Origin: a virus
Reading direction: 5' to 3' (one strand)
DNA: 64,000 bases
Virus record (IMG/VR): IMGVR_UViG_3300027763_002462
Span: 45,456 to 109,455 of that record
Shown here piece after piece: positions 2,310 to 64,000 of this stretch; within the stretch, counting starts at the first letter, position 1, and each line of letters begins with the position of its first letter. The notes beneath the pieces were generated by a model. That model was not told where the DNA came from, ran no database searches, and saw only the letters and a list, made by a program, of their open reading frames with translations. Both the position numbers and the translations under genes were made by a program.

Positions 2310-2332
2310 AATTTTATTCTGTTAGATATTAT

Positions 2333-2339
2333 ATAAATA
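2333..2339 (-). promoter_or_regulatory. Late-type TATTTAT motif for the tape measure gene
   Basis: Sense reading TTTTGTATTTATATAA, 23 nt before the ATG at 2309. It directly follows the terminator hairpin 2341-2366, giving a terminator-promoter unit. Confidence 0.55.
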
Positions 2340-2340
2340 C

Positions 2341-2366
2341 AAAAGGACTGATTTTTCAGTCCTTTT
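2341..2366 (-). terminator. Rho-independent terminator after the tail-chaperone genes
   Basis: A perfect 10-bp stem (AAAAGGACTG / CAGTCCTTTT) with a 6-nt loop. The arm bases supply A/T runs on both sides. It overlaps the stop codon of the small extension ORF (2356-2358) and separates it from the tape measure transcript. Confidence 0.75.
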
Positions 2367-2535
2367 TATTGTCTTCAATCCATTTATCTAATAAATACTT
2401 TCTCATAAAGAGTGGCATAATTAGAAAATCTTGATACGATATGTTTAATAGTGTCGATAAATAGTAATACTCATCGAGCTGACTTTTCCTATAATCAGAA
2501 GAAAGGACGAAAAAAGTCCACCCCAAAACCGACAT
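2356..2535 (-). CDS. Tail-chaperone extension ORF, probably expressed by +1 frameshift
   Basis: A 59-codon frame (MSVLGWTFFV...KWIEDNKKD) overlapping the last 41 nt of the 247-aa gp26-like gene in the +1 frame and ending just before the tape measure gene. It is open from a TGA just upstream of an in-frame ATG at 2535, so it could have its own start. The arrangement copies the G/GT tail-assembly chaperone pairs of many tailed phages, where a frameshift appends a short T domain. The run GAC TTT TTT C lies in the overlap and lets a Phe tRNA slip +1 from TTT to TTT before TTC. The helical C-terminus (MPLFMRKYLLDKWIEDN) fits a T domain. The position and frame are seen; frameshifting is inferred. 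Confidence 0.6.
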   Translation of the reverse strand: MSVLGWTFFVLSSDYRKSQLDEYYYLSTLLNISYQDFLIMPLFMRKYLLDKWIEDNKKD

Positions 2536-3238
2536 TAACTGTCAATCTATCTCCTGATGGGGTCATTACTACTCTTGTCATATCCAATCTTGGCTCATTC
2601 TCACTCATAAAGTTTCTTATGAATTTTGAATCAGCAATTGGCATCTGCTCTATAAATTTGGCGATTTCGCCTTTATCGGTTGAACCGTTTGCTTCAACAA
2701 TTTCTTTTTGAAGTCTTAATGTAATCTTTGGGGCCACTCTACCTACAGGGTATGAATCAGCAATTCTTTGGTTTTCTAAAATTTCACCATAAGTCATTGG
2801 TTTTAACTTAACCGTTGTTTGTGATTTTGGTAAAGTTGTAATAAACGTACCATCTTCATTTGGTGTTTGTCCTTGTAAAATTGATAATTGTTCTAATGAT
2901 ACAGTTGTCTTAAATGATTTTCTTGTTGTTGGGTCAGTTAATGTAACTTCCATTTCAGGACCAAACGCCGTGTTTCTTAAAAAGATTAAGATAGCTTCAA
3001 CATCACCTTCTAACATCTCCTCAACTCGTAAGTCTGGTTCGTAAATTTTAGTTCTTAAAAGATTTGGTGTCATATCTTCACCACCAGCCATTAGTAAGTT
3101 TTCATCATTGGCAGTTAAATAACCGACTTTGACTGATTTCTTTTTGTTTTTGTAGAATATACCTTGAGATGGTAATGGCACCACGTCATGAGGAAGGGAG
3201 AAATTTGCCTGTCCGTATTCTTTTGATTGATTATCCAT
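2495..3238 (-). CDS. T4 gp26-like baseplate hub / tail-assembly chaperone protein
   Basis: A 247-residue protein with N-terminal DVVPLPSQGIFYKNKKKSVKVG, matching the 'LPSxGxxY' opening of the T4 gp26-type baseplate family (PF12322 as I recall it). Central segments AENLLM-like, EPDLRVEEMLEGDVEAILIFLRNTAFG and QTPNEDGT are typical of this family in T4-like phages of many hosts. It lies between the tube gene and the tape measure gene, where tail chaperones sit. A second ORF overlaps its 3' end in the +1 frame. Homology is called from memory of the motif; a role as G-like chaperone is inferred from the gene order. Confidence 0.55.
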   Translation of the reverse strand: MDNQSKEYGQANFSLPHDVVPLPSQGIFYKNKKKSVKVGYLTANDENLLMAGGEDMTPNLLRTKIYEPDLRVEEMLEGDVEAILIFLRNTAFGPEMEVTLTDPTTRKSFKTTVSLEQLSILQGQTPNEDGTFITTLPKSQTTVKLKPMTYGEILENQRIADSYPVGRVAPKITLRLQKEIVEANGSTDKGEIAKFIEQMPIADSKFIRNFMSENEPRLDMTRVVMTPSGDRLTVNVGFGVDFFRPFF

Positions 3239-3240
3239 AT

Positions 3241-3276
3241 AAAAAATTAACCGTAAAGTTTATGTGCTTTACGGTT
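3241..3276 (-). terminator. Terminator after the tail tube gene
   Basis: A perfect 10-bp stem (AACCGTAAAG / CTTTACGGTT) with an 8-nt loop, followed on the minus strand by AATTTTTT. It lies between the tube gene stop and the gp26-like start codon. Confidence 0.75.
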
Positions 3277-3300
3277 AAATATAATAGTTCTAAATTTTTT

Positions 3301-3307
3301 ATAAATA
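3301..3307 (-). promoter_or_regulatory. Late-type TATTTAT motif upstream of the gp26-like gene
   Basis: Sense reading ACTATTTATAAAA, 62 nt before the ATG at 3238. The terminator 3241-3276 lies between motif and gene, so this copy is less certain than the others. Confidence 0.35.
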
Positions 3308-3310
3308 GTA

Positions 3311-3799
3311 TTAGTAAACTAACACACATCTATCCATTCTTAAAGTTGCTGCGATTGTCGCTAAAGCATCTGTATTGTAGGCCAATGCGTTGAAGTTAAC
3401 ATCTGTCAAGAATGTTCCATAAAGAATCCATTTCTCAACAACAACTCCTGTTGGGTCCAACATCTCAAGGTCAATATCTTTCTTATAACCTGCAGCGTAT
3501 CCCATACGGCCTGTTACTGATTCCGCATGTAAACGTACCCACTCCATAAGAGCTTGTGACGCAGATGGGCCAATTGGGTCTCTAAAGACTACGTTAATTG
3601 TTTGCCAGTTGAATCTACCTGCAACATAAGTTGAGGTGTTCAAAAACGGAATTTCCGTTGCTGCGATTGTGATATGCGGTCTAGATGCAGATTCTACAAA
3701 CCACTCATTAATTCCTAAACTCGATGGAAACCTTAAAATGAATCGGTTTTGACGTTTCGGTTCATAAGGAATCGGCATTTTCATCAGTAAATCAGCCAT
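3311..3799 (-). CDS. Tail tube protein, T4 gp19-like
   Basis: A 162-residue protein, the same size as T4 gp19 (163). It opens MADLLMKMPIPYEPKRQNRFILRFP, the classic gp19 N-terminus in which the 'EPKRxNRF' segment starts the tube beta barrel. Later 'WVRLHAESVTGRMGYAAGYKKDIDLEMLDPTGVVVEKW' matches the family pattern of a polymerising tube subunit. Stacked hexamers form the inner tube of the contractile tail. It lies between the sheath side and the chaperone/tape measure genes as in many T4-like phages. It has its own late motif 32 nt upstream and its own terminator, consistent with high-level expression. Confidence 0.88.
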   Translation of the reverse strand: MADLLMKMPIPYEPKRQNRFILRFPSSLGINEWFVESASRPHITIAATEIPFLNTSTYVAGRFNWQTINVVFRDPIGPSASQALMEWVRLHAESVTGRMGYAAGYKKDIDLEMLDPTGVVVEKWILYGTFLTDVNFNALAYNTDALATIAATLRMDRCVLVY

Positions 3800-3831
3800 A
3801 TTATTTAAATTTTGTTTCTATGTTTATAACG

Positions 3832-3838
3832 ATAAATA
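3832..3838 (-). promoter_or_regulatory. Late-type TATTTAT motif for the tail tube gene
   Basis: Sense reading GGATATATTTATCG, 32 nt before the ATG at 3799. Confidence 0.5.
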
Positions 3839-3894
3839 TATCCTGTTTCAAAAATTTTTCTATTTACTTAAATTTTTAAAAATTGTATTCTTAA

Positions 3895-4722
3895 CTAGAC
3901 TTCTTTTTTAATGCCTCCAGTTGTAGAATATGTTCTTACTATATTATCTGGTTTATCTTTAAAATGTTTTTTCATTACTTCTATATTCTTTGGGTCATCG
4001 TCTGAAAAGCCTATAGATGGTTCTTTAGGAATAAAGTTATTATTAACATCATTCTTTAAAAAAGCCTTTTTGTTTAATACTGCAGCCATTCCTTTAATAT
4101 AACTTACAAAATCATCCATTGCACGGACCTTCGCCTCTTCAGGATTTTGGGCTCCTTTTTCATCACCAAAAGAAACGGGGTGGTACTTATTAAGTTCTAA
4201 ATATGACTTGATTAGTTCATCATCACTCATTTCATCCTCATCAGTAAACGACCTATATTTTTTAAGATTTTTAAGAAGTTCTTCTTTATTTATCCCATTA
4301 TAATCATTTATGATGTAGTTATAAACGGCTTGCTTTAAAGTATTTGGATTATGTCCTCTTGCAGTAATAATTGAAAATATTGAACCATTATTAATTGCTT
4401 CTCTAAAATCATCAAATGCTGGTCCTTCTTTGGCTCTCATTGAGTCGATTAAAAAATCTTTGTCTCCCTCAGTTCTAAAGTTTCTAAATGGGTCGTTAGC
4501 AAAACCAACAATTTTCTCACCTTTATATTCAAAAGGTTCCTTACCTAAATGGTGTCTATGTTCCGCAAAGTCATCAGTTGACATACCTACTTCATCACCG
4601 TCTTCTGTTTTAACAATGATTTTTGTTGGCATGTGTACAATATTATCGTCCCAATCAAATGCATAATATTTCATGTCTGGTGAACCCTTATCCTTAAACC
4701 CCTCTATTAATTTTTCTCTCAT
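3895..4722 (-). CDS. HAD-superfamily hydrolase
   Basis: A 275-residue protein. The HAD nucleophile motif is FDWDDNIVHMPT near residue 23, motif II is SIITARGHN, and an acidic motif IV GFSDDDPKNIEVMKK lies near the C-terminus, so all the acidic and Ser/Thr residues for phosphoryl transfer are visible. The cap region contains a long acidic helix (DEDEMSDDELIKSYLE). The substrate is unknown; phage HAD proteins include nucleotide and polynucleotide phosphatases. It lies between sheath and tube genes, an odd place for an enzyme, so a role in tail maturation cannot be excluded. It has no TATTTAT motif of its own; a GC-rich hairpin occupies its leader. Confidence 0.7.
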   Translation of the reverse strand: MREKLIEGFKDKGSPDMKYYAFDWDDNIVHMPTKIIVKTEDGDEVGMSTDDFAEHRHHLGKEPFEYKGEKIVGFANDPFRNFRTEGDKDFLIDSMRAKEGPAFDDFREAINNGSIFSIITARGHNPNTLKQAVYNYIINDYNGINKEELLKNLKKYRSFTDEDEMSDDELIKSYLELNKYHPVSFGDEKGAQNPEEAKVRAMDDFVSYIKGMAAVLNKKAFLKNDVNNNFIPKEPSIGFSDDDPKNIEVMKKHFKDKPDNIVRTYSTTGGIKKEV

Positions 4723-4731
4723 TTGGCTAAA

Positions 4732-4751
4732 GGGGGGATTTAACTCCCCCC
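4732..4751 (-). promoter_or_regulatory. GC-rich hairpin in the leader of the HAD gene
   Basis: Six G and six C residues form a 6-bp stem around an 8-nt loop in the 39-nt space between the sheath stop and the HAD start. On the minus strand the hairpin is followed by TTTAG, not a full T run. It may be an attenuator or a stabilising 3' end for the sheath mRNA. Confidence 0.5.
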
Positions 4752-4761
4752 ATAATTTTTA

Positions 4762-7700
4762 TTAGATATTTTCAAACGAAGCTCCTGTTGGAGTGATGAA
4801 GAATTCAATGTCGATGAATTCTAACGCCTTCGTAGGTTTTAAGTAGATTTTACCTGTTAAAGTGTTTCTATCTAAGTCTTCAGGTGTTGAAGAAACTGTT
4901 ACACGGAAATCGTATAAACCTCTGTCTCTTCTGATTGAATCTAAAATAGGGTTAACACTATCCAAGAATTGTTGTCTAACGATTTGGTCGTTTTGTTCGA
5001 ACAATAATCTTACCGCTACCGCTGAAATTAATTTACGAGCTTGTAATAACAATCTTCTTACGTTCAATCTGTTCAATGCTGAATCAGCTACTTGTAATGT
5101 TTTGTTACCCCAAATTACTGTACCAACGTCTGCGAATGTTGCGATTGGGTTGATTCTACCTTGATAAAGAGTATCTCTATCTTCTTGAGTCAACTTAACT
5201 CTCGCCTTGATTGAATTTACAAGACCTCTTGTGTAACCCGCTGATGCGAACCAAGGGAATGCAATGTTATCTGTCAATGCTAAGTTTCTTACAACCTCAC
5301 CTGTTGGAGGTAAGTAGATTTGTGTATTATTAACAGTATCTCTTACTAAAATCCATGGGTAGTAAGTTGCTGTATAGTTTGAGTCAATTCCTGTATTATC
5401 TAAGTTGTCAACTGCCTCTTGTGGATAAATAACATCTAAAGAGTTAGTTCCGTCTGGAGTGTACATTAAGTAGTCAGGAGTTGTTGCGATATAAACAGAG
5501 TCAGCTCTTGCGTATTGAACCATTTGAATTGCTTCCTCAACAAGATTTGAGTTATTAACATAATCAATACTTGAAGTTGCAAATATGTTAATGTTTGTAG
5601 CTTCAGGGTTAGCGAATGTTAATATACCAAGTAAGTAAGCGTAGTAGTCGGTGTTTGCAAAATCTTGAGTATTGTTTTGTATAACAATTCTCTTGAATAA
5701 ACCGTCACCTGTTGCTGTTGGGTATCTTGTAGAAGACGAAGCTCCTGCTAAGTAACCTGTCGCTCCTAATTGGAATCTATCTTGGTTAGTTCTATATTCT
5801 CTATAAACATCCCATCCGTCAAATCCACCCGCAAAACATATTGTATATTTTCTTGAGTATATAAAGTAGTAAGGGTTTTCTTGAGTTTCAGGGTCAAATC
5901 TGAAATCAGCGACTCCACACTCGAAAGCAGTTTCACCACTTGTTTGGAATGAGTTAGCTATTGTAACTACAGTCGCTCCTGAGTCCATGTGGAATCCTTT
6001 ACTTAAGTAGTTCCAAGGTTCACCTGCTACAGGTAACGCTGAACTAACCCAGTTAGGAGGATTTTGTCTACCTTTAAATTGTAAGAATGCATCGTCAATA
6101 CCAAATTGAGAAGAGAAACCTAAGTAAGCTCTTCTAACAATATCACCTGCAGATTCAGTTGCGTTTGTTGTTGAACCAAATGGAGGGTTGAATACAACCT
6201 CACCTGGATAATAATATTTAGTTTTGAATTTAGGTACTGGTGAAATGTTAGCCGTTGATTCATATTCTCTTTGAGTGTACCCGTAGAATCCACAAGGGAT
6301 TGCATCTATTGGAGCCTCATCAGCTAATTCAATCATTATATATCTTGAAATTAAAGCAAATTCACCGTTAGATGAACCAATTTTCTTAGCAACAAAGTTG
6401 TTTGAAGCTGGGTCCATATTACAATTTGTGAATTTCTCAATTACAACAGGATTAGCGTCTGTATCAAAGAAGTTTCTAACTAATACGTCAAATGTCATAT
6501 TGTTAAATGATAAGTTTGCAATTGAAACTTTAACTTCTGTGTTAGCTGCGTCACCATCAGAAATTGAAATGAATTTAAATAATCTATAAACTTTATTACC
6601 TCTTAACTCAGATACTAAGAACGGAGTTTCAGGTGATTGATATTTTTCAACTTTATAAGCGATTGATTGTGTATTTTCGCTTCTTGCATCTTCTAACGCA
6701 ACTAACTCAGGATTAATACCTTTAATATAACCTTGGTTATATGCATAGTTTAAAGAACCTGGATAAATTTCTTCAACATATAATGGAACCTCATTTCTTG
6801 ATTTTCCAAAATTATCAACACCTAACACTTTAGTTATAAACTTAGGAGACGCCGCAGATAATGAAGTTTCAAAAGAGAAAGTATCAGAATCTTTAGTAAT
6901 ACCTGAAAGTAAGAATCCTTCATATGGTGAATTTGTAATACCTGAATATTGTCCTGTTGCAACTAAATTAACATCAGTTAATCCACTTACTTCGTATATA
7001 GGACCGTGTTGACCAAGGTCTGCGTTGTTTGAATATAATGAAATACCTCTTGAACGTAAAGTTGCTACAACCATGTTGTTATATTCACTATAAGCAGTAC
7101 CTGAGAAGTTGAATACATCTCCTTCAATAGTTCCTGTATAAGTTGCTCCACCGTCAGTTGTTGTTAAAGACGTTACAGTATAATAGAATGAATAACCTGC
7201 GTAGTCGTTATTAATATTAGCGTCATTATCAAACGTTGCATAATACCAAGGGTCGTTTAAATCTGCACTTAAATCATTAGTATCAAGATTGTTTGAACTT
7301 GACCCAAACACATTTAATTGTTTTGAGTATTGACTAACTAATCCCCAATAAGTTGTTGATGGTACCGCTCCGTAGAATGCAACAGTTGTTGCGGAATACG
7401 ATGGGTTATCGATTATAAATCCTAAATTAGAATTAAAATCATCTTGATATGTAGATGTACTACCATCAGATAATCTATATTGTATATTTAGGTTATTTTG
7501 AATGTCTGTAGGTAATCCACTTAACATAGTAACAGTACTACCCGAACTAGCTCCTGTAAATACAGAAGTAAATGCGGTTCCTCCTGTTGGAGGTATTATA
7601 CCTATAGTTAATGGGTCGACATTGGCAGTAACTCTAATACTCCAAGAAGGACCCGCGTCGTATCCCGACAAACCTAATACTCTTGTAACAAACAATTGGT

Positions 7701-7974
7701 TAGACTGTTGTAAGTATGACTTGGCAATGTATGCCGCTTCATATTTTGGGATTTGTGTGTTTACAAATTTTACTGGTTCCGTTCCGCCAAAATAAGCTTG
7801 GAACTCGTCGTAGTTAGTTATAAAAACAGGTTCGAATGCAGGGCCCTTTATTGTTTCCCCTACTAAACCTAAGGTAGTAACACCGACACTCTGTGCTACG
7901 AACGAAAGGTCCGTTTCAGATGTGTATACTCCAGGTGATACAAAAACTTTTTGATTTGCTTGTGCTGTTGCCAT
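4762..7974 (-). CDS. Tail sheath protein, T4 gp18-like
   Basis: A 1070-residue sheath subunit; T4 gp18 has 659. The N-terminus (VFVSPGVYTSETDLS...TTLGLVGETIKGPAFEP) and the C-terminal about 220 residues (NRLNVRRLLLQARKLISAVAVRLLF..., RRDRGLYDFRVTV, GKIYLKPTKALEFIDIEFF) are the conserved sheath core (Phage_sheath family), carrying the extended strands that lock neighbouring subunits. The extra about 400 residues lie in the middle, in the region that is surface-exposed in T4 gp18, and are rich in Ser, Thr, Asn and Tyr. Its own late motif is 36 nt upstream. Contraction of sheath hexamers drives the tube into the host. Confidence 0.9.
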   Translation of the reverse strand: MATAQANQKVFVSPGVYTSETDLSFVAQSVGVTTLGLVGETIKGPAFEPVFITNYDEFQAYFGGTEPVKFVNTQIPKYEAAYIAKSYLQQSNQLFVTRVLGLSGYDAGPSWSIRVTANVDPLTIGIIPPTGGTAFTSVFTGASSGSTVTMLSGLPTDIQNNLNIQYRLSDGSTSTYQDDFNSNLGFIIDNPSYSATTVAFYGAVPSTTYWGLVSQYSKQLNVFGSSSNNLDTNDLSADLNDPWYYATFDNDANINNDYAGYSFYYTVTSLTTTDGGATYTGTIEGDVFNFSGTAYSEYNNMVVATLRSRGISLYSNNADLGQHGPIYEVSGLTDVNLVATGQYSGITNSPYEGFLLSGITKDSDTFSFETSLSAASPKFITKVLGVDNFGKSRNEVPLYVEEIYPGSLNYAYNQGYIKGINPELVALEDARSENTQSIAYKVEKYQSPETPFLVSELRGNKVYRLFKFISISDGDAANTEVKVSIANLSFNNMTFDVLVRNFFDTDANPVVIEKFTNCNMDPASNNFVAKKIGSSNGEFALISRYIMIELADEAPIDAIPCGFYGYTQREYESTANISPVPKFKTKYYYPGEVVFNPPFGSTTNATESAGDIVRRAYLGFSSQFGIDDAFLQFKGRQNPPNWVSSALPVAGEPWNYLSKGFHMDSGATVVTIANSFQTSGETAFECGVADFRFDPETQENPYYFIYSRKYTICFAGGFDGWDVYREYRTNQDRFQLGATGYLAGASSSTRYPTATGDGLFKRIVIQNNTQDFANTDYYAYLLGILTFANPEATNINIFATSSIDYVNNSNLVEEAIQMVQYARADSVYIATTPDYLMYTPDGTNSLDVIYPQEAVDNLDNTGIDSNYTATYYPWILVRDTVNNTQIYLPPTGEVVRNLALTDNIAFPWFASAGYTRGLVNSIKARVKLTQEDRDTLYQGRINPIATFADVGTVIWGNKTLQVADSALNRLNVRRLLLQARKLISAVAVRLLFEQNDQIVRQQFLDSVNPILDSIRRDRGLYDFRVTVSSTPEDLDRNTLTGKIYLKPTKALEFIDIEFFITPTGASFENI

Positions 7975-8010
7975 TATTTAATTTAATTCTATTGCAGATT
8001 TATTTTAATG

Positions 8011-8017
8011 ATAAATA
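8011..8017 (-). promoter_or_regulatory. Late-type TATTTAT motif for the sheath gene
   Basis: Sense reading CGAATATTTATCA, 36 nt before the ATG at 7974. Confidence 0.5.
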
Positions 8018-8096
8018 TTCGTTACTACTACAAAAAACTTGACTTTTGAATATGTATTTGTAAACGGTATGAATAAATTCTGCCTTTTTTCTGCCT

Positions 8097-8264
8097 ATGA
8101 AAACTAAGAAGGAAATAAAGAACATTAAAATAGACCCTGAAGTACACGAGATATTAAAAAAGTACTGTGAGAATCGTGGAATGAAGATTTATAAATTTTT
8201 AGAAAATTTGATACTTGAGAAGTGTAAAGAAAAAAAAGATATCTACGGAGAAAAATTAAACTAA
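8097..8264 (+). CDS. Small ribbon-helix-helix-like DNA-binding protein
   Basis: A 55-codon gene starting MKTKKEIKNIKIDPEVHEILKK. A basic N-terminal strand (KEIKNIKID) is followed by helix PEVHEILKKYCENRG and helix KIYKFLENLILEKCKE. This is the layout of Arc/MetJ/CopG-type ribbon-helix-helix repressors, which bind DNA as dimers through the paired strands. It is the only plus-strand gene in an otherwise minus block and overlaps the end of the gp15-like gene by 9 nt, tail to tail. A phage transcription regulator is likely. The target is unknown, and no clear host-type promoter was found. Confidence 0.65.
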   Translation: MKTKKEIKNIKIDPEVHEILKKYCENRGMKIYKFLENLILEKCKEKKDIYGEKLN

Positions 8265-9296
8265 GATATTATCAAACTTAATGTTTGCTTCTAAAGAGTC
8301 ATCTTGTTTAACAACTTGTATTCTTAAAACATCATTAGTTGTTATTTGAATCTTCTGAACATCGGTACCATAATAGTCTCCGTTAATATAAACATCATAT
8401 GATTCAACGTTGATTGAATTAGCCCAAGTTAAATTTGCAGTATAAGCAACCACATCACTTAATGTATTGTTACCAACAACATAATAAAAGTTAGATAAAA
8501 ATTCGTCAGGGTTTTTAGGACTTTTATTTCTTCTTTGTTTAAAACTTGAAGTATCAATCTCCATAATTTGAGAAACTCTTGCAATTGCAGGTTTAACTTC
8601 AAACTCATCTTCATCAATAAGATATCCTAACATTGTGAAGTCATATGATTGAACATAATATTTTCTTGAGTCCAAACTCATTTGAGACTCGTCAGAAATA
8701 TTGTTTAATATGATTGGAACATATTGCCCTTTGATAAAAGTGTACGCCTGTCTTGATGAGAATTTTTGCATAACAATTTTATTTAATTCGTTAAGCTCCC
8801 TCATTCTATTACAAATAATTTTTACACTGTAGTTAATATCTACAGGCACTGGCTGTGGTATTGTGTATATGTCCATACCTTGTTCGTTACCATTCCAAGT
8901 TGGAACAGATGCATAATAAAATTGTTTTCTATTAGGTATTGTATATTGAAGAGCAGGATTAGTTCCAAATTTAACTTCAGGACTTCTTACCACTGTAATG
9001 AATGGTGGTGAAGGGTTATAATCTAAATCAACAAATAAAGCAGTCTCAACATATTGTGTCCAGTTTTGAGTTGTAATAATAATATCAACCATAGGTACCA
9101 CTTTACCTGCGGTTACAACTTCTAAATCTCCTTTAACAAAATCAAGCATACCCCTATCCAAGTCGGCATGTAATACTGACTTAGGTAAATAAGTTCCATC
9201 TTTGTTGATATATTCCAACAACTGCTCCCTACGAGCAGACAAAGTTTTTTTAGGAACTAACGGCAATGTTGGTTTAACTTGTTTTGGTAATGGCAT
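8256..9296 (-). CDS. Tail connector / sheath-terminator protein, T4 gp15-like
   Basis: A 346-residue protein. The central part follows the plan of T4 gp15: YNPSPPF, then a 'PVPVDINYSVKIICNRM' strand-helix unit, 'QKFSSRQAYTFIKGQYVPI', the acidic 'DESQMSLDSRKYYVQSYDFTMLGYLIDEDEF'. In T4, gp15 caps the sheath and tube and joins the tail to the neck. The match is by residue pattern rather than high identity. The C-terminal about 75 residues (TLSDVVAYTANLTWANS...) look like an added immunoglobulin-like domain. It is co-transcribed with the upstream 9.3-9.8 kb gene (2-nt gap) and sits before the sheath, as gp15 does in T4. Confidence 0.5.
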   Translation of the reverse strand: MPLPKQVKPTLPLVPKKTLSARREQLLEYINKDGTYLPKSVLHADLDRGMLDFVKGDLEVVTAGKVVPMVDIIITTQNWTQYVETALFVDLDYNPSPPFITVVRSPEVKFGTNPALQYTIPNRKQFYYASVPTWNGNEQGMDIYTIPQPVPVDINYSVKIICNRMRELNELNKIVMQKFSSRQAYTFIKGQYVPIILNNISDESQMSLDSRKYYVQSYDFTMLGYLIDEDEFEVKPAIARVSQIMEIDTSSFKQRRNKSPKNPDEFLSNFYYVVGNNTLSDVVAYTANLTWANSINVESYDVYINGDYYGTDVQKIQITTNDVLRIQVVKQDDSLEANIKFDNILV

Positions 9297-9298
9297 TA

Positions 9299-9811
9299 TT
9301 AAATTCCTCTAAATTCATTTTCACTAACATAAGTGGCAACAACACTTCTATAAAAAGGTTTGTATCCACCGTAAGTGTGTTTATTGTCTGACCTAACATA
9401 TCCATCATCAGACACTACATAATATCTAACCCTATCTTCAGATTCATAATATCCAATATAATCACCTTGAAATATTTCAACTTCCAAATCATCAAGAGTC
9501 TTTTGGTAAATAGAGAACTTCATATTACCAGGCTCTTGTAGTTCAATTTTTGAATTACCATAGTTTTTACTTGCAGGAGTCATCACCTGAACCAAACCTT
9601 GCAATTCAACAGGAGCTAAAAATTGGATTCCATCTTCAAGTACCTCACCATAAACATCATCTACTTTTGTTTTTTGTCTATCTACTCGATAGAGAACAAT
9701 AGTAAAGTTCATATCACCAAGCAACCACTCCTCACCCATACCGATGTCGAGTGAATAGTCTTCAGCTCCAAAGAACTTACCTAATCTTGTAATTGGGACT
9801 AACTTTTGCAT
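9299..9811 (-). CDS. Neck / head-closure protein candidate (gp14-like)
   Basis: About 170 residues from the ATG at 9811. An upstream TTG at 9829 is also open, but it overlaps the late motif, so the ATG is preferred. The beta-rich sequence (GNMKFSIYQKTLDDLEVEIFQGDYIGYYESEDRVRYYVVSDDGYV) resembles head-completion or neck proteins that open with 'GD.I.Y' strands and end in a surface loop. Its place directly upstream of the gp15-like gene matches T4 gp14. No decisive motif is seen; the assignment is largely by synteny. Late motif is 6 nt before the chosen ATG. Confidence 0.45.
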   Translation of the reverse strand: MQKLVPITRLGKFFGAEDYSLDIGMGEEWLLGDMNFTIVLYRVDRQKTKVDDVYGEVLEDGIQFLAPVELQGLVQVMTPASKNYGNSKIELQEPGNMKFSIYQKTLDDLEVEIFQGDYIGYYESEDRVRYYVVSDDGYVRSDNKHTYGGYKPFYRSVVATYVSENEFRGI

Positions 9812-9814
9812 ATA

Positions 9815-9845
9815 TTGATAAATACTCAAAGATTAACTATATTTA
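9815..9845 (+). promoter_or_regulatory. Host-type promoter for the SNF2 helicase gene
   Basis: TTG at 9815-9817, 20 nt, then TATATTTA at 9838-9845, close to the Bacteroidetes consensus (TTTG ... TAnnTTTG). The start codon is 21 nt downstream at 9867. It overlaps the divergent late motif 9818-9824. Confidence 0.45.
9818..9824 (-). promoter_or_regulatory. Late-type TATTTAT motif for the neck gene
   Basis: Sense reading TTGAGTATTTATCA followed 6 nt later by ATG at 9811. The motif overlaps the alternative TTG start at 9829, which argues for the ATG. Confidence 0.6.
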
Positions 9846-9866
9846 AGCCAAATAATTTTCCAATTA

Positions 9867-11618
9867 ATGGACGCTAGTTTAGAATCAAAGGCATTGTCTC
9901 TCTTGGAGGTTTATGAAGGAGGAAATAACTACCTTATTGAACTTAAAAGAAAGTCTCAAATAAATAGGAGGTTTTACCCTACAAGGAGTCAGGCTGAGTA
10001 TATTATTAATAACCATAACAAACAACCAAAGGTTGCAAAAAAATGGGTAATACTTGACGCATATTTCGCACAGAAACTTGCTGACGATAAACTTATGACC
10101 GAAATACCTGAAAAAATTTGGGTAGAAAAGTTATTGGCAGATAAAGAAAAAGCGTTTCACATTTGGGGTAAGATAACCGAATCGGAACAACTACATGATT
10201 TTTGGTTGCCCAAAGCGGCAATCATAAAAGACAACACGGTTAAAAACGTTGTAATAAACTATGAAAAATATTCTCACCGTCCTCCTCTTGAACATCAAAA
10301 AGAATCTATTCAAAAATTGGTTGAAAATAAAAAATTCATACTTGCAGATGATATGGGTCTTGGAAAGACTACTTCTACTATTATAGCGGCATTAGAATCA
10401 GGGTCCAAGAAAGTATTAATTATTTGTCCAGCAACTTTAAAAATTAACTGGAAAAGAGAGATTGAAAACTATTCAGATAAGGCAGTTTATATTGCTGAAG
10501 GTAAAAACTTTAGTACGGATGCTGACTTTGTAATAATAAATTATGATATTATAAAAAATTTCCATGATACAAAAAAGAAAGGTGAATCGCAAATTCTTGA
10601 TGCCAATTTTGATTTGGTGGTCGTTGATGAAGCGCACTATATTAAAAACGCTACAGCCCAAAGAACAAAACTAATTAACGACCTTGTTAAGAAGGTGGAC
10701 CGACTTTGGTTATTGACGGGTACTCCGATGACCTCTCGACCAATTGATTACTTCAACTTATTAAGTTTGATTGAATCCCCTGTTGCGAAGAATTGGATGG
10801 CGTATGCTATCAGATACTGTCAGGGATACCAATTCAACGTCGGAGGCAGAAAGGTGTGGAATGTTATGGGGGCGTCTAATCTTGAGGAATTAAGAGACAG
10901 AACCGCAGGTCTTACATTAAGAAGACTTAAAGAAAACGTACTTGACCTTCCTGACAAAATAATCACACCAGTATATCTTAGATTAAAGTCTAAAATGTAT
11001 GAGGAGATTATGGGAGAATATTACGATTGGTATGACAAAAATCCAGAGGAATCAAAATCTCTTACAGTTCAATTCACCAAGTTAACAAAGATACGTCAGG
11101 TTATCGCAGATGAAAAAGTTTCACAGACAATAGAACTTGCAGAAAACATTGTTGAACAAGGGAAAAAAGTAATTATCTTCTGTAACTTTACAGATTCACT
11201 TAATAAAATTTGCGAACATTTTGGTAAATCCGCAGTTAAAATAAACGGCTCAATGTCTAAACCTGAAAGACAACACAGTGTAGACAGTTTCCAAGAAAAC
11301 GATAAAATAAAAATACTTGTCGGTAATATAAAAGCCGCTGGGGTTGGTATAACTTTAACGGCAGCTGAAGCGGTTATTATGAACGACCTATCATTTTTAC
11401 CATCCGACCACGCCCAAGCAGAAGACCGAGCTTATAGATACGGTCAAAAAAACAATGTATTAGTTTATTACCCCATATTCGAAAACACAATCGAAGGAAT
11501 TATCTACGACATATTAAACAATAAAAAACAAGTGATTGCCACAGTTATGGGGGACAATCAAAATACGGCCGATGCTGCCGAAGAAATTTTGAAGAGAATT
11601 AATGAAATGCGTCGTTAA
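9867..11618 (+). CDS. SNF2-family DNA helicase/translocase
   Basis: A 583-residue protein with two RecA-like domains. Motif I (DDMGLGKTTS, near residue 163), motif Ia (VLIICPATLKINW), motif II (VVVDEAHYIKN), motif III (LLTGTPMTSRP) and the C-terminal motifs (KVIIFCNF, ITLTAAEAV-like, QAEDRAYRYGQ) are all present. The family uses ATP to move on double-stranded DNA; SMARCAL1-type members anneal or remodel forks, a role comparable to T4 UvsW. An N-terminal about 140-residue region without a recognised fold may bind DNA. It is the first gene of a plus-strand run and has a host-type promoter, so it is probably early or middle. Confidence 0.88.
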   Translation: MDASLESKALSLLEVYEGGNNYLIELKRKSQINRRFYPTRSQAEYIINNHNKQPKVAKKWVILDAYFAQKLADDKLMTEIPEKIWVEKLLADKEKAFHIWGKITESEQLHDFWLPKAAIIKDNTVKNVVINYEKYSHRPPLEHQKESIQKLVENKKFILADDMGLGKTTSTIIAALESGSKKVLIICPATLKINWKREIENYSDKAVYIAEGKNFSTDADFVIINYDIIKNFHDTKKKGESQILDANFDLVVVDEAHYIKNATAQRTKLINDLVKKVDRLWLLTGTPMTSRPIDYFNLLSLIESPVAKNWMAYAIRYCQGYQFNVGGRKVWNVMGASNLEELRDRTAGLTLRRLKENVLDLPDKIITPVYLRLKSKMYEEIMGEYYDWYDKNPEESKSLTVQFTKLTKIRQVIADEKVSQTIELAENIVEQGKKVIIFCNFTDSLNKICEHFGKSAVKINGSMSKPERQHSVDSFQENDKIKILVGNIKAAGVGITLTAAEAVIMNDLSFLPSDHAQAEDRAYRYGQKNNVLVYYPIFENTIEGIIYDILNNKKQVIATVMGDNQNTADAAEEILKRINEMRR

Positions 11619-11631
11619 AGAAAATCTGGAT

Positions 11632-11638
11632 TATTTAT
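11632..11638 (+). promoter_or_regulatory. Late-type TATTTAT motif for the SOD-fusion gene
   Basis: Reads GGATTATTTATATG, 22 nt before the ATG at 11661. It suggests that the SOD fusion is made with structural proteins, unlike the helicase upstream. Confidence 0.5.
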
Positions 11639-11660: not shown

Positions 11661-13199
11661 ATGAAAAAAATAGAAGAGAAAATCCAACAACTCGAAACAC
11701 AAATACTTGAAAACCACATCACAAAAGAAAAAGAGTTGTTGATTAACGAAATGAAAAAAATAGGAATAGAAAAATTACCCTATTCTTACTCAGCCCTGAA
11801 ACAGTTTATTGACCCCGAGACAATGAACTTTCACTATAACAAACATTATAAGGGATATGTGGATAAATTGAATGACGCTTTAAATAAAAAGAAATACGGG
11901 GATTTAGAGTTAGAACAAATAATCAAAACAATAAGTCGTTTTGATAAGACAATAAGAAACAACGCAGGAGGAGCATTTAACCACGCATTGTTTTGGAATA
12001 TGTTAACACCAACTCCAAAGAAATTAGAAGGAGAATTACTTAAAAAAATCACAAAACAATTCGGAAGTTTCACTGCGTTCAAGAAACAATTTGATACTGT
12101 TGCCAAAGATAGATTCGGTTCAGGGTGGGTATGGTTAGTCCTTACTGCCAAGAACACATTAAAGATTATGTCGACTCCAAATCAAGACAATCCTTTAATG
12201 AATGTGATTGAAGGTGGTGGGTTTCCAATATTAGGATTAGACTTATGGGAACACGCTTATTACTTAAAGTATAGAAACAAGAGAGACGAATATATTGTTA
12301 ACTTTTGGAAAGTTGTAAATTGGGAATTTGTTTCCAAGTTATACGAAATGAAAACGGAAACTAAATTAGTAGAATCCGTTAAGTTAGAGAAGTTGATTAC
12401 AGAATCTAAAGAGGCGAAGTTCTGTGACGCCAAGGAAGTTCAATTCTACAGAGAACTTATTAATAATTCAAACATTAAGAGAATATACCAAGACGGAGTA
12501 ACTAATGCTTTAAAAGAAGTGTTTAGTCAATTTTGGGTTGATAGTACAAATAAAGAAATGTCAGGGTTTTATGGATTAGAGTCTAAAGAAGGAAGGTCTA
12601 TTTTAAATAACCTAAACACAAACTTCAACACGTTTTGTTTATTAACCAAAGCAATTAATACTCAAATTGAAAAAATAGGTAGACCTGAAAAGAAATTTAA
12701 TTTTTCTAAAAAAGAAAATAGAACCATTAAAGAAATTAACAGATTAATGAATGCGTTGTATCATTTCAAAACAGAAATATTCACAAAAAACAACGAGGAG
12801 TTTATTAACATAATTAAAGTGTTAAAAAAATTGTGGGATAGAGGACAAAAATCTGAAGATGATGTTTTAATTAAAATTGAAAAATATTTTGGGGATTCCG
12901 CAAAACTTGAAAAGACTGGAGGACATGGTCAAAAAACCGATGCTCTCCTTGGTGTTGATTTAACAATTACTTTAAATGAAACAAAATATACCGCTCAGGT
13001 TAAACCATTTTCAAGAATAATAAAAGAAGATGGGAAAATTACTGTAAAAGATACAGGAAATGTTAAACCGTACGACGTTGATTGGTTGATATTTATTAAT
13101 ACAAAATCAAACGAAATTTTGATTTTTGAAAACAACCCGATTAAAAATCATAATCAATATGTGTTTAATGAGAGTTCATTAATTCATAAAATAGAATAG
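11661..13199 (+). CDS. Fe/Mn superoxide dismutase fused to a nuclease-like C-terminal domain
   Basis: A 512-residue fusion. Residues about 37-230 are a complete Fe/Mn SOD: metal ligands H58 (NFHYNKH), H108 (FNHALFW), D194 and H198 (DLWEHAYYLKYRN), plus gateway Tyr66. Gly104 and Gln175 (NQDNPLM) give the Mn-type arrangement of the second-shell glutamine. A helical leader (1-36) precedes it. Residues about 250-400 are helical with no known match. Residues 400-512 contain 'GVDLTI', ten residues, then 'QVK' (D433...Q446-K448) followed by DVDWLIFIN, resembling a PD-(D/E)XK nuclease core with Gln for Glu. SOD removes superoxide; the nuclease idea is inference. Its late motif and the adjacent neck gene suggest a virion or late role. 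Confidence 0.85.
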   Translation: MKKIEEKIQQLETQILENHITKEKELLINEMKKIGIEKLPYSYSALKQFIDPETMNFHYNKHYKGYVDKLNDALNKKKYGDLELEQIIKTISRFDKTIRNNAGGAFNHALFWNMLTPTPKKLEGELLKKITKQFGSFTAFKKQFDTVAKDRFGSGWVWLVLTAKNTLKIMSTPNQDNPLMNVIEGGGFPILGLDLWEHAYYLKYRNKRDEYIVNFWKVVNWEFVSKLYEMKTETKLVESVKLEKLITESKEAKFCDAKEVQFYRELINNSNIKRIYQDGVTNALKEVFSQFWVDSTNKEMSGFYGLESKEGRSILNNLNTNFNTFCLLTKAINTQIEKIGRPEKKFNFSKKENRTIKEINRLMNALYHFKTEIFTKNNEEFINIIKVLKKLWDRGQKSEDDVLIKIEKYFGDSAKLEKTGGHGQKTDALLGVDLTITLNETKYTAQVKPFSRIIKEDGKITVKDTGNVKPYDVDWLIFINTKSNEILIFENNPIKNHNQYVFNESSLIHKIE

Positions 13200-13205: not shown

Positions 13206-13212
13206 TATTTAT
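13206..13212 (+). promoter_or_regulatory. Late-type TATTTAT motif 4 nt before the gp13-like start
   Basis: Reads GATATTTATTGACATGG; the ATG at 13217 follows after 4 nt. It belongs to the group of five copies with identical spacing. Confidence 0.6.
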
Positions 13213-13216: not shown

Positions 13217-14341
13217 ATGGCAGTATTACCAGAACCAGAAAGAAGTAGGATATATACGAGAATCAAACATCAGTTAGGTGCACCACTAAGAAGTGTTGAA
13301 CTTGAAGATGAGATGATGGATTCGTTAATGGAATTAGCAATTGGGGATTACGAAGAGTATATCCTACAATGGTTAATTGATTCTCAATGGGTTAACTTAG
13401 TTAACTTGAATATGAATGAAAGGTCTGTTGCAAGAGCGTTAGTTACAAGAACTATGGATTTTGAACAACAGTTTAGTTACGCATATTCTAAAATTGTAGG
13501 TCTTCAAACTGAAGGTCCTTGGGTTTTAAAGAAAGATTATTTCGTTCTTGAGAAGAATGTTCAAACATATGAAATTCCTGCGGGTAGAGAAGTTAATGAA
13601 CTATTATGGTTTAGTGACCAACCTTGGACTGCGTTTGGAATTGGTGGAATGGCTGGTGGTTTTGGTGGTATCGGATTAGGTGCCGACCAAGCTGGATTTG
13701 CTCAAATGGGTAATCAAGGTTCTTATTTTATGATGTCAGGTTTTGATTATTTAATCAGAATGCAAGAAGCCAATATTCTTAATAGAATTTTAGGTGGTTC
13801 GATGACTTATAGAATTACAGGTTTACCTGATGGTAAAAAGTTAATTCACTTAATGAATACCCCTGGTGGTAAATTTAATTGGTCAAGTTATAGTCAATAC
13901 GTTGGTAAAGCCGTATGGTATTGGTATTATGATGTTGAACCCGATAGTAGAGCCGATTGTCTCAAAAACAATCCTGATATTATTAAATTACCGACAGATG
14001 TTCCAATCGAATCTCTTAGTTGGGAGGACTTAAACGTTCCTGGTCAACAATGGGTGAGAAGATGGTTTACTGCCTATTGTAAAGAAACTTTGGCAAGAGT
14101 TAGAGGTAAGTATAGTGGTAACTTAAAAACACCTGATTCTGAAATCGTAATGGATTATCAGAGTTTACTTACTGAGGCTAAAGACGAAAAGACCAAATTA
14201 ATAGATGAACTAACAGGAGCTGAAGGATGGTTGACAAGAATGAGACCCGATAAAGTAATGGAACGAGAAGCATTAATTGCAGAAAACTTGAACAAACAAA
14301 TGAAGTTCAGAGCAATGCCTCGTCAAATATATGTAATTTAA
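13217..14341 (+). CDS. Neck protein, T4 gp13-like
   Basis: A 374-residue protein; T4 gp13 has 309. The N-terminal helical part (RIYTRIKHQLGAPLRSVELEDEMMDSLMELAIGDYEEYI) matches the gp13 opening in which an acidic helix follows a 'LG.P...VEL' turn. The C-terminal part (WVRRWFTAYCKETLARVRGKYSGNLKTPDSEIVMDYQSLLTEAKDEKTKLIDEL) matches the 'W...Y...L...GK......P......Y..L..EA..E...L..EL' gp13 signature. In T4, gp13 and gp14 close the filled head and accept the tail. A glycine-rich stretch (about 139-160) looks like a disordered insertion. Its ATG lies 4 nt after a late motif. Confidence 0.65.
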   Translation: MAVLPEPERSRIYTRIKHQLGAPLRSVELEDEMMDSLMELAIGDYEEYILQWLIDSQWVNLVNLNMNERSVARALVTRTMDFEQQFSYAYSKIVGLQTEGPWVLKKDYFVLEKNVQTYEIPAGREVNELLWFSDQPWTAFGIGGMAGGFGGIGLGADQAGFAQMGNQGSYFMMSGFDYLIRMQEANILNRILGGSMTYRITGLPDGKKLIHLMNTPGGKFNWSSYSQYVGKAVWYWYYDVEPDSRADCLKNNPDIIKLPTDVPIESLSWEDLNVPGQQWVRRWFTAYCKETLARVRGKYSGNLKTPDSEIVMDYQSLLTEAKDEKTKLIDELTGAEGWLTRMRPDKVMEREALIAENLNKQMKFRAMPRQIYVI

Positions 14342-32599: not shown

Positions 32600-33300
32600 T
32601 GATAAACATACCTTTAACCAAGATTTTATTTTTAGATATCGAAACTGTCGGTATTCAACCAGATTGGGCATCTCTTGAGTCTAATAGACCTGAGCTGGCA
32701 TACCAATTTAAAAATTACCATGATTGGTTTCAAAAAAGATTTCCTGAAGATGCGGACAAACCTGTTGGAGATATGTTTGTAAACAGAGCGGCATTAGTTC
32801 CTGAGTTTGCAAGAATTGCTTGTGTTAGTGTTGCTTTTGTTACAGACAAAGGTGAAACTAAAATGCAATCATTCAGTGACCCTGACGAAAAAAAACTATT
32901 GGAGGAGGTTCAAAAACTGCTTAAACGAGTTGGAGAATTAAACTTTTTTTTATGTGGTCACAATGTTAAAGGATTTGATATTCCAATGTTGGCAAAAAGA
33001 ATGATGATGAATGGTATTCTTCCTCCAAAAATATTACCAGGTCATGACACTAAACCATGGGAAATTAAAGCTCTTGATACTAAAGAACTTTGGCAATACG
33101 GTGGATATGGTTCTATAGCATCATTAGAACTAATGTGTGTTTGTTTAGGTGTTGAGTCTTCTAAAAACATGGAGGTTACAGGTAATAAAGTTCACGAAGC
33201 GTTTTGGGTTAAAAAAGATATCTCAGGTATTGTTGAATATTGTGAGAAGGACGTATCGGTTTTAATCGACGTAATTAACAAACTATTAAAATTAAAATAA
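32599..33300 (+). CDS. DEDDy 3'-5' exonuclease (PolB-exonuclease-like)
   Basis: A 233-residue protein with the four acidic motifs of DnaQ-like exonucleases: LFLDIETVG, GHNVKGFDIPML, and YCEKDVSVL (DEDDy class). It resembles the stand-alone exonuclease family related to the PolB proofreading domain (PF10108 as I recall). It degrades single-stranded 3' ends, perhaps in replication or host-DNA scavenging. It overlaps the preceding gene by 1 nt and is an odd neighbour for sugar genes. Confidence 0.8.
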   Translation: MINIPLTKILFLDIETVGIQPDWASLESNRPELAYQFKNYHDWFQKRFPEDADKPVGDMFVNRAALVPEFARIACVSVAFVTDKGETKMQSFSDPDEKKLLEEVQKLLKRVGELNFFLCGHNVKGFDIPMLAKRMMMNGILPPKILPGHDTKPWEIKALDTKELWQYGGYGSIASLELMCVCLGVESSKNMEVTGNKVHEAFWVKKDISGIVEYCEKDVSVLIDVINKLLKLK

Positions 33301-33917: not shown

Positions 33918-33921
33918 TTAT

Positions 33922-40927: not shown

Positions 40928-40928
40928 T

Positions 40929-41600: not shown

Positions 41601-41604
41601 TATT

Positions 41605-45215: not shown

Positions 45216-45216
45216 T

Positions 45217-45825: not shown

Positions 45826-45826
45826 T

Positions 45827-47856: not shown

Positions 47857-47862
47857 CATATA

Positions 47863-49468: not shown

Positions 49469-49469
49469 T

Positions 49470-50522: not shown

Positions 50523-50523
50523 T

Positions 50524-62282: not shown

Positions 62283-64000
62283 TTATCTTAATTCTCTCAA
62301 GTCAAATGTTCTTACACCATCAACTGTGATTCTACCGTAGAAACGGTTGTTCACCATTTTCTTAGCGTATCTAGTCATGATACCTTTGATTGGAGTGAAG
62401 TTGAATGGATTGTACATTGTTGGAGTTAATTGTAGAGGTACGTACGGTGCGTAGATGTAACCTGTATCTAACAAAGAAGTTCCTTTGTGACCCATTAACA
62501 CTTGGTTAGGTGGGAAGTAAGGGTCTCTGTAAACTTGGTAACGACCAGCTAAAGTACCAACTCTTTCAATACCCATGTTGTATTGGTCTTGCTCAGGAGC
62601 TGCGTTTGAAACGTGGAAATACTCCAAGTCATCAAAGATTGCACTGATTTCAGAAGAAACAACAATCCAGTTTGCTCCACCTCTTAATGTAGATTTGTGG
62701 ATTTGAGCTGAAATTTGGTTGATTGCTGTGATTAAAGTTTGGTTCCAATCTTTTTGAGTGTATGGAACTGCACTTGAACCCAGTCTCTTCCAACCATTGT
62801 AATCCCATCTTAAGTTCCAAGCTGCACCTTTTCTCAAATCTCTTAAGATTTCTCTATCGATTTCCGCTGCAACTTGCTCAGATAATAATGCTGTTAATTC
62901 AGCTTCAGCGTCAATGTTGTGGAATGCCGCAACGTCTTGAGCCATTTCAGGAGACCATTGTGCTCTTAATTTTCTTTCAGTTACAGAAACTGTTACTGAC
63001 ATTAAGTCAAATGAAACCTCACCAATTCTATCTTCGAATTCCAAGTTCTTATAGATTCTATATGTTGCAGAGAATGCTTGAGAGTTAGTTGCGATTGTAG
63101 ACGCAAATGTAGAACCTGTGTAACCGTCCATTGAACCACCACAAGTGATACATACTGGTACCTGTAAATCAACTTCTAAATAGATTTTTCCTTCAGCATC
63201 ACATAAGTTGTCATATTGACCACCATCAGTTTTACTGTTAGGGAATACTAACGTAGCGTTGTTGTTACCGTACTGTACAATACCTTTACCATATCTTTGA
63301 GTTACAACTCTGAATAAATAAGGGTTAGTTGTGTTAGCAGAAGTTGTTGCGTTTCCAGCAACACCATAGATAGTCAAATCAGATAAGAAAGCTTCATTAT
63401 CCATTGGTTGACCATCAGGACCGATTAATTTACCAGCTCCATCAGATGCGAAACCTGACATAACTATTAATACTTTTCTATAATCAGAAAGAGTATATGC
63501 AGAAGGAACTAATTGGTCAGCTAACCATGAAACTGTTGTTACGTTTGCAGTGATTGCAGAATATTGTCCTTTAGAATAGTCAAATAAACCTGGTGGGTCT
63601 AATGCTGGTTCGTTACCTTCGTAGAATCTATCGTAAAGGTCTTTAGTGTTGTTATAGTCATAACCACTGTTTGGAGTTTGGTCCGCAGCTGCGTTTGGTG
63701 AACCATAAGGAGGGTAGTGAATACCTGTGTTCGCCAAGTTTGCAGGGTCAGTGTACGCCTGAATGTTAGGTACGAAGTAGAATAATTTACCAATTGGTAA
63801 GTTCATTGCTTGTACTGAAACGATGTCGTTTGCTAATAATTTAGAGAATACACGTCTAACAATTGGGAAAACCACAGTTTCAAATGCACCTGTATCAGAT
63901 GTAGATGATGCTTCATTAATTAAAAATGATGCTTGGTTTTCGTATAATTGAGCTACGTTTTCTCTCATGTGACCTTTAAGACCTTCTAAAAAGCCTAATT
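62283..64000 (-). CDS. Major capsid protein, T4 gp23-like (partial at right edge)
   Basis: At least 572 residues, with the frame open beyond the right edge. MRENVAQLYENQ at 63968 is an internal methionine: the frame continues upstream through LGFLEGLKGH, so the true start and propeptide lie outside. ENQASFLINEA, FPIVRRVFSKLLANDIVSVQAMNLPIGKLFYF corresponds to the T4 gp23 'GMVRRAIPNLIAFDICGVQPMNSPTGQVF' block, and the C-terminal APYVPLQLTPTMYNPFNFTPIKGIMTRYAKKMVNNRFYGRITV to the gp23 end. It forms the hexameric head shell. Terminator follows. Confidence 0.88.
   Translation of the reverse strand, partial: LGFLEGLKGHMRENVAQLYENQASFLINEASSTSDTGAFETVVFPIVRRVFSKLLANDIVSVQAMNLPIGKLFYFVPNIQAYTDPANLANTGIHYPPYGSPNAAADQTPNSGYDYNNTKDLYDRFYEGNEPALDPPGLFDYSKGQYSAITANVTTVSWLADQLVPSAYTLSDYRKVLIVMSGFASDGAGKLIGPDGQPMDNEAFLSDLTIYGVAGNATTSANTTNPYLFRVVTQRYGKGIVQYGNNNATLVFPNSKTDGGQYDNLCDAEGKIYLEVDLQVPVCITCGGSMDGYTGSTFASTIATNSQAFSATYRIYKNLEFEDRIGEVSFDLMSVTVSVTERKLRAQWSPEMAQDVAAFHNIDAEAELTALLSEQVAAEIDREILRDLRKGAAWNLRWDYNGWKRLGSSAVPYTQKDWNQTLITAINQISAQIHKSTLRGGANWIVVSSEISAIFDDLEYFHVSNAAPEQDQYNMGIERVGTLAGRYQVYRDPYFPPNQVLMGHKGTSLLDTGYIYAPYVPLQLTPTMYNPFNFTPIKGIMTRYAKKMVNNRFYGRITVDGVRTFDLRELR

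Follow-up and report, generated by a model that had tools for sequence, protein, structure and literature searches.

A superoxide dismutase fused to an exchangeable predicted nuclease in a jumbo-phage lineage

Results and Discussion

The Fusion Gene and Its Neighbourhood

The window analysed here is a 64,000-nucleotide stretch of viral DNA, corresponding to positions 45,456 to 109,455 of the 109,455-base virus record IMGVR_UViG_3300027763_002462. Its plus strand contains, at 11661..13199, an open reading frame (ORF) of 512 codons, with an ATG start and a TAG stop, that encodes an Fe/Mn superoxide dismutase (SOD) fused to a predicted nuclease; 132 distinct full-length relatives of the gene were collected. 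An initial annotation, made from the letters of the DNA alone, had placed this gene between a helicase and a neck gene, and family matches bear this out: an SNF2-type helicase gene lies upstream (9867..11618, plus strand), and 17 bases separate the stop codon of the fusion from the start of a neck, or head-tail adaptor, gene (13217..14341, plus strand; phrog_211, E 1e-9).

The tail sheath and major head proteins of the window also match PHROGs families. The sheath gene (4762-7974) encodes a long protein of 1070 amino acids whose sheath match is confined to the C-terminal end. The major head protein gene (62283..63968, minus strand; phrog_138, E 2e-63) may extend beyond the end of the window. 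A long block of sugar and nucleotide-sugar genes occupies 31388-51330 on the plus strand, in which glycosyltransferase-, epimerase-, dehydrogenase-, and NadE-like genes can be recognized by eye. Because its relatives reach 317-326 kb, the window is assigned to a jumbo-phage lineage. Searches of named phages with the neck protein and PolB as queries returned distant relatives only, and no isolate of the lineage.

A Conserved Superoxide Dismutase

Residues 31-235 (11751..12365, plus strand) form an Fe/Mn SOD of the SodFM1 type, the ordinary SOD sequence beginning at residue 31. The Pfam domains Sod_Fe_N (PF00081; residues 36-115, E 6.5e-22) and Sod_Fe_C (PF02777; residues 123-226, E 4.5e-40) are both present, and matches to SODs in the PDB reach E 6.7e-59. 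The metal ligands H58, H108, D194, and H198 occur without exception in the 132 distinct full-length proteins, as do the C-terminal Gln175 and Gly192, the Gly lying two residues before the Asp ligand; the SOD is thus intact, with a second-shell Gln of the Mn type, as had been proposed. By the rules given in the available text of PMC10172142, the enzyme qualifies as a SodFM1 whose residue pattern leans towards Mn; the same text states that metal use is not readable from the SOD subfamily alone, that it is mainly the dimeric SodFM1s that have the C-terminal Gln, and that SodFM1s prevail in Bacteroidota.

A Bacteroidota host is our guess from the SOD type. A search with the SOD gave a match at E 1e-20 or better in 283 of 296 Bacteroidota genomes, and the best of the matches listed were 43-52% identical to the SOD of the fusion. 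No such fusion was found among the SOD matches listed for these 296 genomes, in which the longest open frame was 362 amino acids. A search of genome contigs gave four SOD relatives among the 593 candidates listed, a result probably dominated by the short pattern used and uninformative on bacterial fusions.

The SOD is the most constrained of the parts compared. Its median dN/dS was 0.038, as compared with 0.047 for snf2, 0.066 for polB, and 0.072 for the neck gene, and the PD-(D/E)XK part of the fusion gave 0.219, nearly six times the SOD value and far below 1 (45 dereplicated loci of 165 having all four genes, with medians taken only from pairs with dS of 0.1-1.5).

A Predicted PD-(D/E)XK Nuclease

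About 275 residues follow the SOD within the one continuous 512-residue frame, close to the roughly 280 of the initial annotation. Curated families in Pfam and PHROGs gave no match for this part of the window protein, and comparison of the C-terminal part with Pfam, PHROGs, PADLOC, and PDB sequences produced weak and inconsistent matches only. Among these, a PADLOC match to PD_DExK (E 0.01) for the version at locus L364, which belongs to the second of the three nuclease classes described below, is consistent with the fold proposed here, and a PADLOC match to Cas6_IIIa (E 0.0042) for the class 3 version at L332 was taken as chance. A Pfam scan of 15 members gave unrelated families, the best at E 0.0084.

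The initial annotation had suggested a possible PD-(D/E)XK core around D433 and Q446-K448, and the predicted structure now gives this suggestion substance. An AlphaFold2 model of the C-terminal part, built from a 29-sequence alignment, has a mean pLDDT of 83.6, and its residues 156-277, equivalent to residues 391-512 of the window protein (12831..13196, plus strand), align with PD-(D/E)XK nucleases. The best matches in the PDB include Hjc (Z 7.8, rmsd 2.9, 100 residues aligned), NhoI (Z 7.7, rmsd 2.7, 96 aligned), a chain of the SPARDA complex (Z 7.7, rmsd 4.0, 114 aligned), and I-Ssp6803I (Z 7.3, rmsd 4.2, 109 aligned); RecU, like Hjc a Holliday junction enzyme, is also among the closest folds. 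A search with a model of the full-length protein, in which the SOD half was poorly modelled, returned the same nuclease set. Judging by their titles, we take the first 28 matches to the C-terminal model and the first 32 to the full-length model to be members of the PD-(D/E)XK superfamily. All Z scores are below 8, a range that the search tool calls common, and Foldseek against the PDB gave nothing at E 0.001 or better, with I-Ssp6803I ranked first at E 1.8e-3.

E399, D427, D433, Q446, and K448, the first two of which extend the set originally noted, are invariant in 132 of 132 proteins, even though identity in the C-terminal part falls to 22.5%. A Gln in this place of the (D/E/Q)-x-K motif occurs in some PD-(D/E)XK members. 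Because the list of matches is consistent and the catalytic residues are invariant (Z scores below 8 alone being no proof), we regard the prediction of a PD-(D/E)XK fold for residues 391-512 as firm. The preceding residues 249-390 (12405..12830, plus strand) are predicted to be mostly helical and belong to the same exchangeable cassette; no family was found for them, and as the fold searches barely probed this part we claim no novelty for it.

The nuclease part has two homologues encoded as stand-alone genes. One, in the 735-kb phage LR756501, matches most of the C-terminal part with an hhalign probability of 97.1 and 28% identity; the other, on the IMG/VR contig 3300042261_000981 (locus L237), is 66% identical to it. 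Both keep the catalytic residues, those of the L237 protein having been read by eye. A search of IMG/VR with the LR756501 nuclease as the sole query gave no relatives; a query in which it was aligned with the fusion domain gave one, L237. On the L237 contig, which is megaphage-like, several unrelated proteins encoded at 1719-10047 share a repeated DPYGEE(D/E)W-like motif, and the N-termini of several resemble T4-type targeting peptides. The domain also occurs in two BFVD structures: A0A6J5L953, a 501-residue protein named "superoxide dismutase [uncultured Caudovirales phage]" (E 5.3e-16, 29% identity), and a 1113-residue marine phage protein (20% identity). A divergent form of the fusion is thus probably already in a public database as A0A6J5L953, judging from its modelled structure. 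A profile of the C-terminal part matched 0 of 395 Bacteroidota genomes in a search that had no positive control and so shows little.

The Fusion Recurs at a Fixed Position

The initial annotation had called for a search for the same fusion in related phages and had named a frameshift or an assembly error joining two genes as an alternative. In a search of IMG/VR with the neck gene alone, a query chosen to avoid circularity, the fusion lay upstream of the neck gene in 79 of the best 80 loci; the sole exception, L363, has an SOD only, without the nuclease. The best 80 of more than 592 IMG/VR candidates for the fusion itself all match residues 1-512, at 71-100% identity. Queries with two divergent versions of the nuclease returned at least 67 and at least 18 loci, of which 84 were new, and each of the 84 had an ORF with the SOD motif. 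Altogether, such an ORF was present at 410 of the 411 loci examined, L237 being the exception; many of these loci are the same contig fetched repeatedly, so that loci are not to be equated with contigs. They yielded 137 distinct ORFs, 132 of them full length. The remaining five, excluded as shorter than 480 residues, comprise three that run into contig ends (L149, L426, and L465), the SOD-only allele L363, and L278. With the fusion at 79 of 80 neck-anchored loci and in 132 distinct full-length sequences, a frameshift, or a sequencing or assembly error joining two genes, is ruled out for practical purposes. A homing endonuclease, borne on an intron or intein or encoded by a mobile gene, was likewise considered and rejected, because the fusion occupies one constant place, before the neck gene, in 79 of 80 loci.

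A collection of deposited phages gave 29 records matching the fusion, 0 of them past residue 246; matches that may be bacterial DNA, such as MW462191 as judged by its neighbours, were left out. MW462191 and several short OR84/OR85 records, all deposited as phages, may represent ordinary bacterial SOD regions.

The Nuclease Half Varies as a Cassette

Seven pairs picked for discordance between SOD and C-terminus were compared at the nucleotide level in steps of 120 nucleotides. Identity was 75-98% through the SOD, 46-62% from about residue 240 (about nucleotide 720) to the stop codon, and 68-98% in the neck gene, where it recovered in seven of seven pairs. The low upstream identity in the two pairs that involve L364 arises because a gene for a 530-residue protein, with MHES and IISEQ motifs, is inserted there between the helicase and the fusion (787-2376). 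At the protein level, the SODs of L009 and L359 are 98.5% identical and their C-termini 35%; for L167 and L364 the values are 99% and 37%. An SOD identity of at least 95% coincides with a C-terminal identity below 45% in 47 of 8646 pairs.

Single linkage at 45% identity divides the C-terminal parts into three classes of 72, 47, and 13 sequences, the window protein belonging to the first; the number of classes depends on the cut-off, with three groups at 45%, four at 50%, and seven at 55%. The best SOD identity across classes is 99.0% between classes 1 and 2, 95.4% between classes 2 and 3 (C-terminus 26.5%), and 91.3% between classes 1 and 3 (C-terminus 26.6%). Mapped by parsimony, the class changes 13 times on an SOD tree built from nucleotides (132 tips) and 12 times on a tree of the neck gene (121 tips), where two changes would suffice without exchange; the exact count depends on the tree, in which support for the small mixed groups is 0.94 or higher in several cases and 0.0-0.34 in others. 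Shuffling the class labels gave at least 41 changes on the SOD tree and at least 38 on the neck tree. Because the 13 and 12 changes exceed two and stay below the 41 and 38 of shuffled labels, the sequences point to an inheritance of the nuclease that is partly vertical with repeated replacement. We consider it well supported by computation that the SOD is nearly constant and that the nuclease is swapped as a cassette.

By sequence, the gene has the layout of a polymorphic toxin, with a constant N-terminal part and an exchangeable C-terminal domain that is a predicted nuclease. No cognate immunity gene was found directly downstream, where the neck gene follows and is alike between classes. Nor did we notice a variable partner gene beside the fusion; this counts against the packaged cargo proposed below, which would call for self-protection. 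Downstream of the SOD-only gene at L363, a 97-residue ORF (3678-3968) appears by eye to be a heptose adenylyltransferase fragment.

A Late-Promoter-Like Motif

A late motif had been noted upstream of the fusion, and it recurs. TATTTAT lies at 11632..11638 on the plus strand, and of 132 relatives 129 have it within the 80 nucleotides preceding the fusion, as against about 0.02 expected. The neck gene has its own copy (13206..13212, plus strand), present in 131 of 131 relatives. In the window the motif occurs 36 times on both strands and is found within 45 nucleotides upstream of 14 of the 41 gene starts picked; in gene orientation it precedes tail, neck, and other genes. The T4 late motif TATAAATA reads TATTTATA on its complementary strand. 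By its promoter-like motif the fusion would be a late gene, its transcription being deduced from the motif.

Candidate Processing Sites

The SOD is preceded by an N-terminal extension of residues 1-30 (11661..11750, plus strand), 19 to 66 residues long among relatives, which we propose to be a propeptide: a conserved [I/L]-x-E30 stands directly before M31, with Ile in 116 and Leu in 16 proteins at position 28, a variable position 29, and Glu30 in 132 of 132. Two further candidate protease sites lie in the junction between the domains (residues 236-248; 12366..12404, plus strand). L236-x-E238 is conserved in 132 of 132 full-length proteins. At [I/L/M]246-x-E248, Glu248 is present in 128 of 132 and absent in four, and the first position is Met in 12 of 132. 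With thresholds of 95% for Glu and 90% for Ile plus Leu, the 512 alignment columns contain only four conserved [IL]xE triplets, at 28-30, 236-238, 246-248, and the LWE of the SOD active site; in the three at the domain borders the middle residue varies. L363, the allele with an SOD only, retains the first of these sites and stops at the residue corresponding to L236.

The motif is short, and [IL]xE occurs in 426 of 1583 34-residue segments of a relative's proteins. Conserved triplets with a free middle residue numbered two in snf2, one in polB, and none in the neck protein (of nine, six, and four conserved triplets, respectively) in controls of 1,889 residues. In the same comparison, on 70 sequences, the fusion has six conserved triplets; those ending in E17, E238, and E248 pass the free-middle cut-off, and that ending in E30 misses it, its middle residue being T in 54, N in 15, and Q in one.

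A gp21-type protease is encoded in four larger relatives. Each of these genomes, the four of 317-326 kb that were searched, gave a Peptidase_S77 match (E about 1e-22); the record of the window itself, a 109-kb piece, gave no match, so that the protease was found in four of the five records searched. In one relative (G001) the Peptidase_S77 gene lies near the major head gene and its product begins MKNLRILE/A, and the head protein has LINE/A ending at residue 60, the slash marking the candidate cut; we take the start and position of this protease and the LINE/A of the head protein to resemble T4. The corresponding comparison site in the head protein of the window is its N-terminal FLINE/A. The T4 prohead protease gp21 cuts after L/I-X-E, according to the available text of PMC9026906.

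In the 317-kb relative G001 (L306-L321), the first 25 residues of 296 proteins contain 24 occurrences of [IL][IL][NTS]E, a density of 3.69 per 1000 sites as compared with 0.35 beyond residue 100. Short tags of this kind, such as MKYIITExQ, stand at the start of many G001 proteins and may be head-targeting or protease-processed N-termini. The N-terminal extension of the fusion is, by eye, unlike the short MKYIITE-type tags of other G001 proteins.

The earlier suggestion that the protein may be packaged or act at infection gains indirect support from the conserved (L/I)-x-E triplets at the domain borders and from the gp21-type protease in four larger relatives. Taken together, these sequence features leave processing and packaging of the fusion evenly poised.

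A Proposed Mechanism and Its Alternatives

The likeliest reading, to which we give about an even chance of being right, is that the fusion is a late, head-packaged, and cleaved cargo composed of a propeptide, a constant SOD, and an exchangeable nuclease. The gene would be transcribed late, from the motif observed upstream of it, and its product would be taken into the prohead, where the gp21-type protease would cut after E30 and after E238 and/or E248 and so free SOD and nuclease within the head. Both would then be injected with the phage DNA; the SOD would remove superoxide in early infection, and the nuclease would cut the DNA of host, resident elements, or rival phages. An arms race or competition among phages would be expected to leave the pattern seen here, a nuclease that is replaced again and again while its catalytic residues are strictly kept.

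It is unlikely, in our view, that the protein instead works uncut as a bifunctional enzyme late in the infected cell, with the nuclease handling branched or damaged phage DNA, whether as a resolvase or in genome trimming near packaging, and the SOD shielding that DNA. The Holliday junction enzymes Hjc and RecU among the closest folds would fit such a role, as would the SNF2 helicase and neck gene as neighbours, the late motif, and the mainly dimeric SOD type (available text of PMC10172142), which would suit a dimeric nuclease; yet there is no evident reason why a housekeeping enzyme should be swapped repeatedly to below 45% identity beside neighbours that are alike, and one allele, L363, lacks the nuclease. 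That this allele carries an SOD alone speaks for a different and quite unlikely alternative, namely that the function resides chiefly in the SOD, as an auxiliary gene for oxidative-stress tolerance of host or virion, and that the C-terminal domain serves mainly to anchor it on DNA or the virion, any nuclease activity being secondary. The strong constraint on the SOD (dN/dS 0.038) and the lone SOD genes of other large phages, for example at loci L235 and L236, are in keeping with this, but the five residues E, D, D, Q, and K are kept in 132 of 132 proteins across classes with as little as 22.5% identity, and binding alone would need none of them. The converse, that the SOD does no more than provide a stable, constant carrier or dimeriser for a variable nuclease in which, as with colicins or polymorphic toxins, the biology lies, strikes us as very unlikely: a nearly constant N-terminal part with an exchangeable C-terminal nuclease is what it describes, but none of the 132 proteins departs from the metal ligands or from the second-shell Gln175 and Gly192.

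The reading as a packaged and cleaved cargo can be taken further, tentatively and with the balance tilted against it. The fusion may be the phage equivalent of a polymorphic toxin, in the form of a polyprotein packaged in the head: a constant, active SOD and an interchangeable nuclease "warhead" would be made behind a common propeptide, separated by the prohead protease, and injected together. The SOD would then cover an oxidative burst at infection, and related jumbo phages would be engaged in a frequency-dependent contest in which their nuclease classes destroy plasmids, defence-linked DNA, or the phages that compete with them.

Novelty and Significance

The available text of the open-access literature on SOD in phages yielded no description of an SOD-nuclease pairing, nor of any phage gene in which a constant antioxidant part is joined to a nuclease part that is exchanged. 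The sources, as far as their text was available, treat a lone Fe/Mn SOD in a phage as an auxiliary gene (PMC12542629) and describe lambdoid sodC genes (PMC7599459) and SOD in particles of giant eukaryotic viruses (PMC9405923). Homing endonucleases that block rival phages are covered in a jumbo-phage review (PMC13282480), and multidomain "polyvalent" proteins injected with phage DNA in another review (PMC7824862); the word "superoxide" is absent from the main texts of both. What appears from the sequences to be new is the pairing of the domains and their mode of variation, both enzyme families being known.

If the nuclease classes are weapons or anti-defence tools, they offer a natural set of three classes on close SOD backgrounds (best cross-class identity 91-99%) in which the drivers of replacement could be tested. 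If the SOD is injected, the question of whether phages entering a cell face an oxidative challenge, and respond to it, becomes testable. The example of A0A6J5L953 suggests that some phage sequences filed merely as "superoxide dismutase" may carry an unnamed nuclease.

Comparison with Known Systems

The lone SODs of large phages, such as Vibrio phage 2.275.O and Pseudomonas phage Callisto, are phage-encoded Fe/Mn SODs like that of the fusion, but they are short single-domain genes with about 30% identity to it. The SodFM1 SODs of Bacteroidota share with the fusion both Pfam domains, the three His and one Asp ligands, and the C-terminal Gln and Gly, whereas the N-terminal extension and the C-terminal nuclease are features of the fusion. 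Hjc, I-Ssp6803I, NhoI, and the SPARDA nuclease subunit share with it the predicted core fold and the ordered E, D, and Q-x-K; unlike these PD-(D/E)XK enzymes, the fusion has a helical N-terminal part of its own preceding the core, a Gln where the last motif usually has Asp/Glu, and a C-terminal part without a convincing sequence-family match. The LR756501 and L237 nucleases have no SOD attached, the L237 copy overlapping the end of a gene for an 814-residue protein. A0A6J5L953 has the same C-terminal domain in a comparison made by structure rather than from its sequence, and is named there only as an SOD.

The closest functional parallel in our proposal would be with the T4 internal proteins and gp21-processed head proteins, with which the fusion has in common a late gene, candidate L/I-X-E sites, and, in relatives, a gp21-type protease. 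The T4 internal proteins are poorly conserved among relatives and have been tied to an arms race with restriction systems (available text of PMC9026906), and their variability would be a fitting precedent for the replacement of the nuclease. The fusion differs from them in combining two enzyme domains in each chain.
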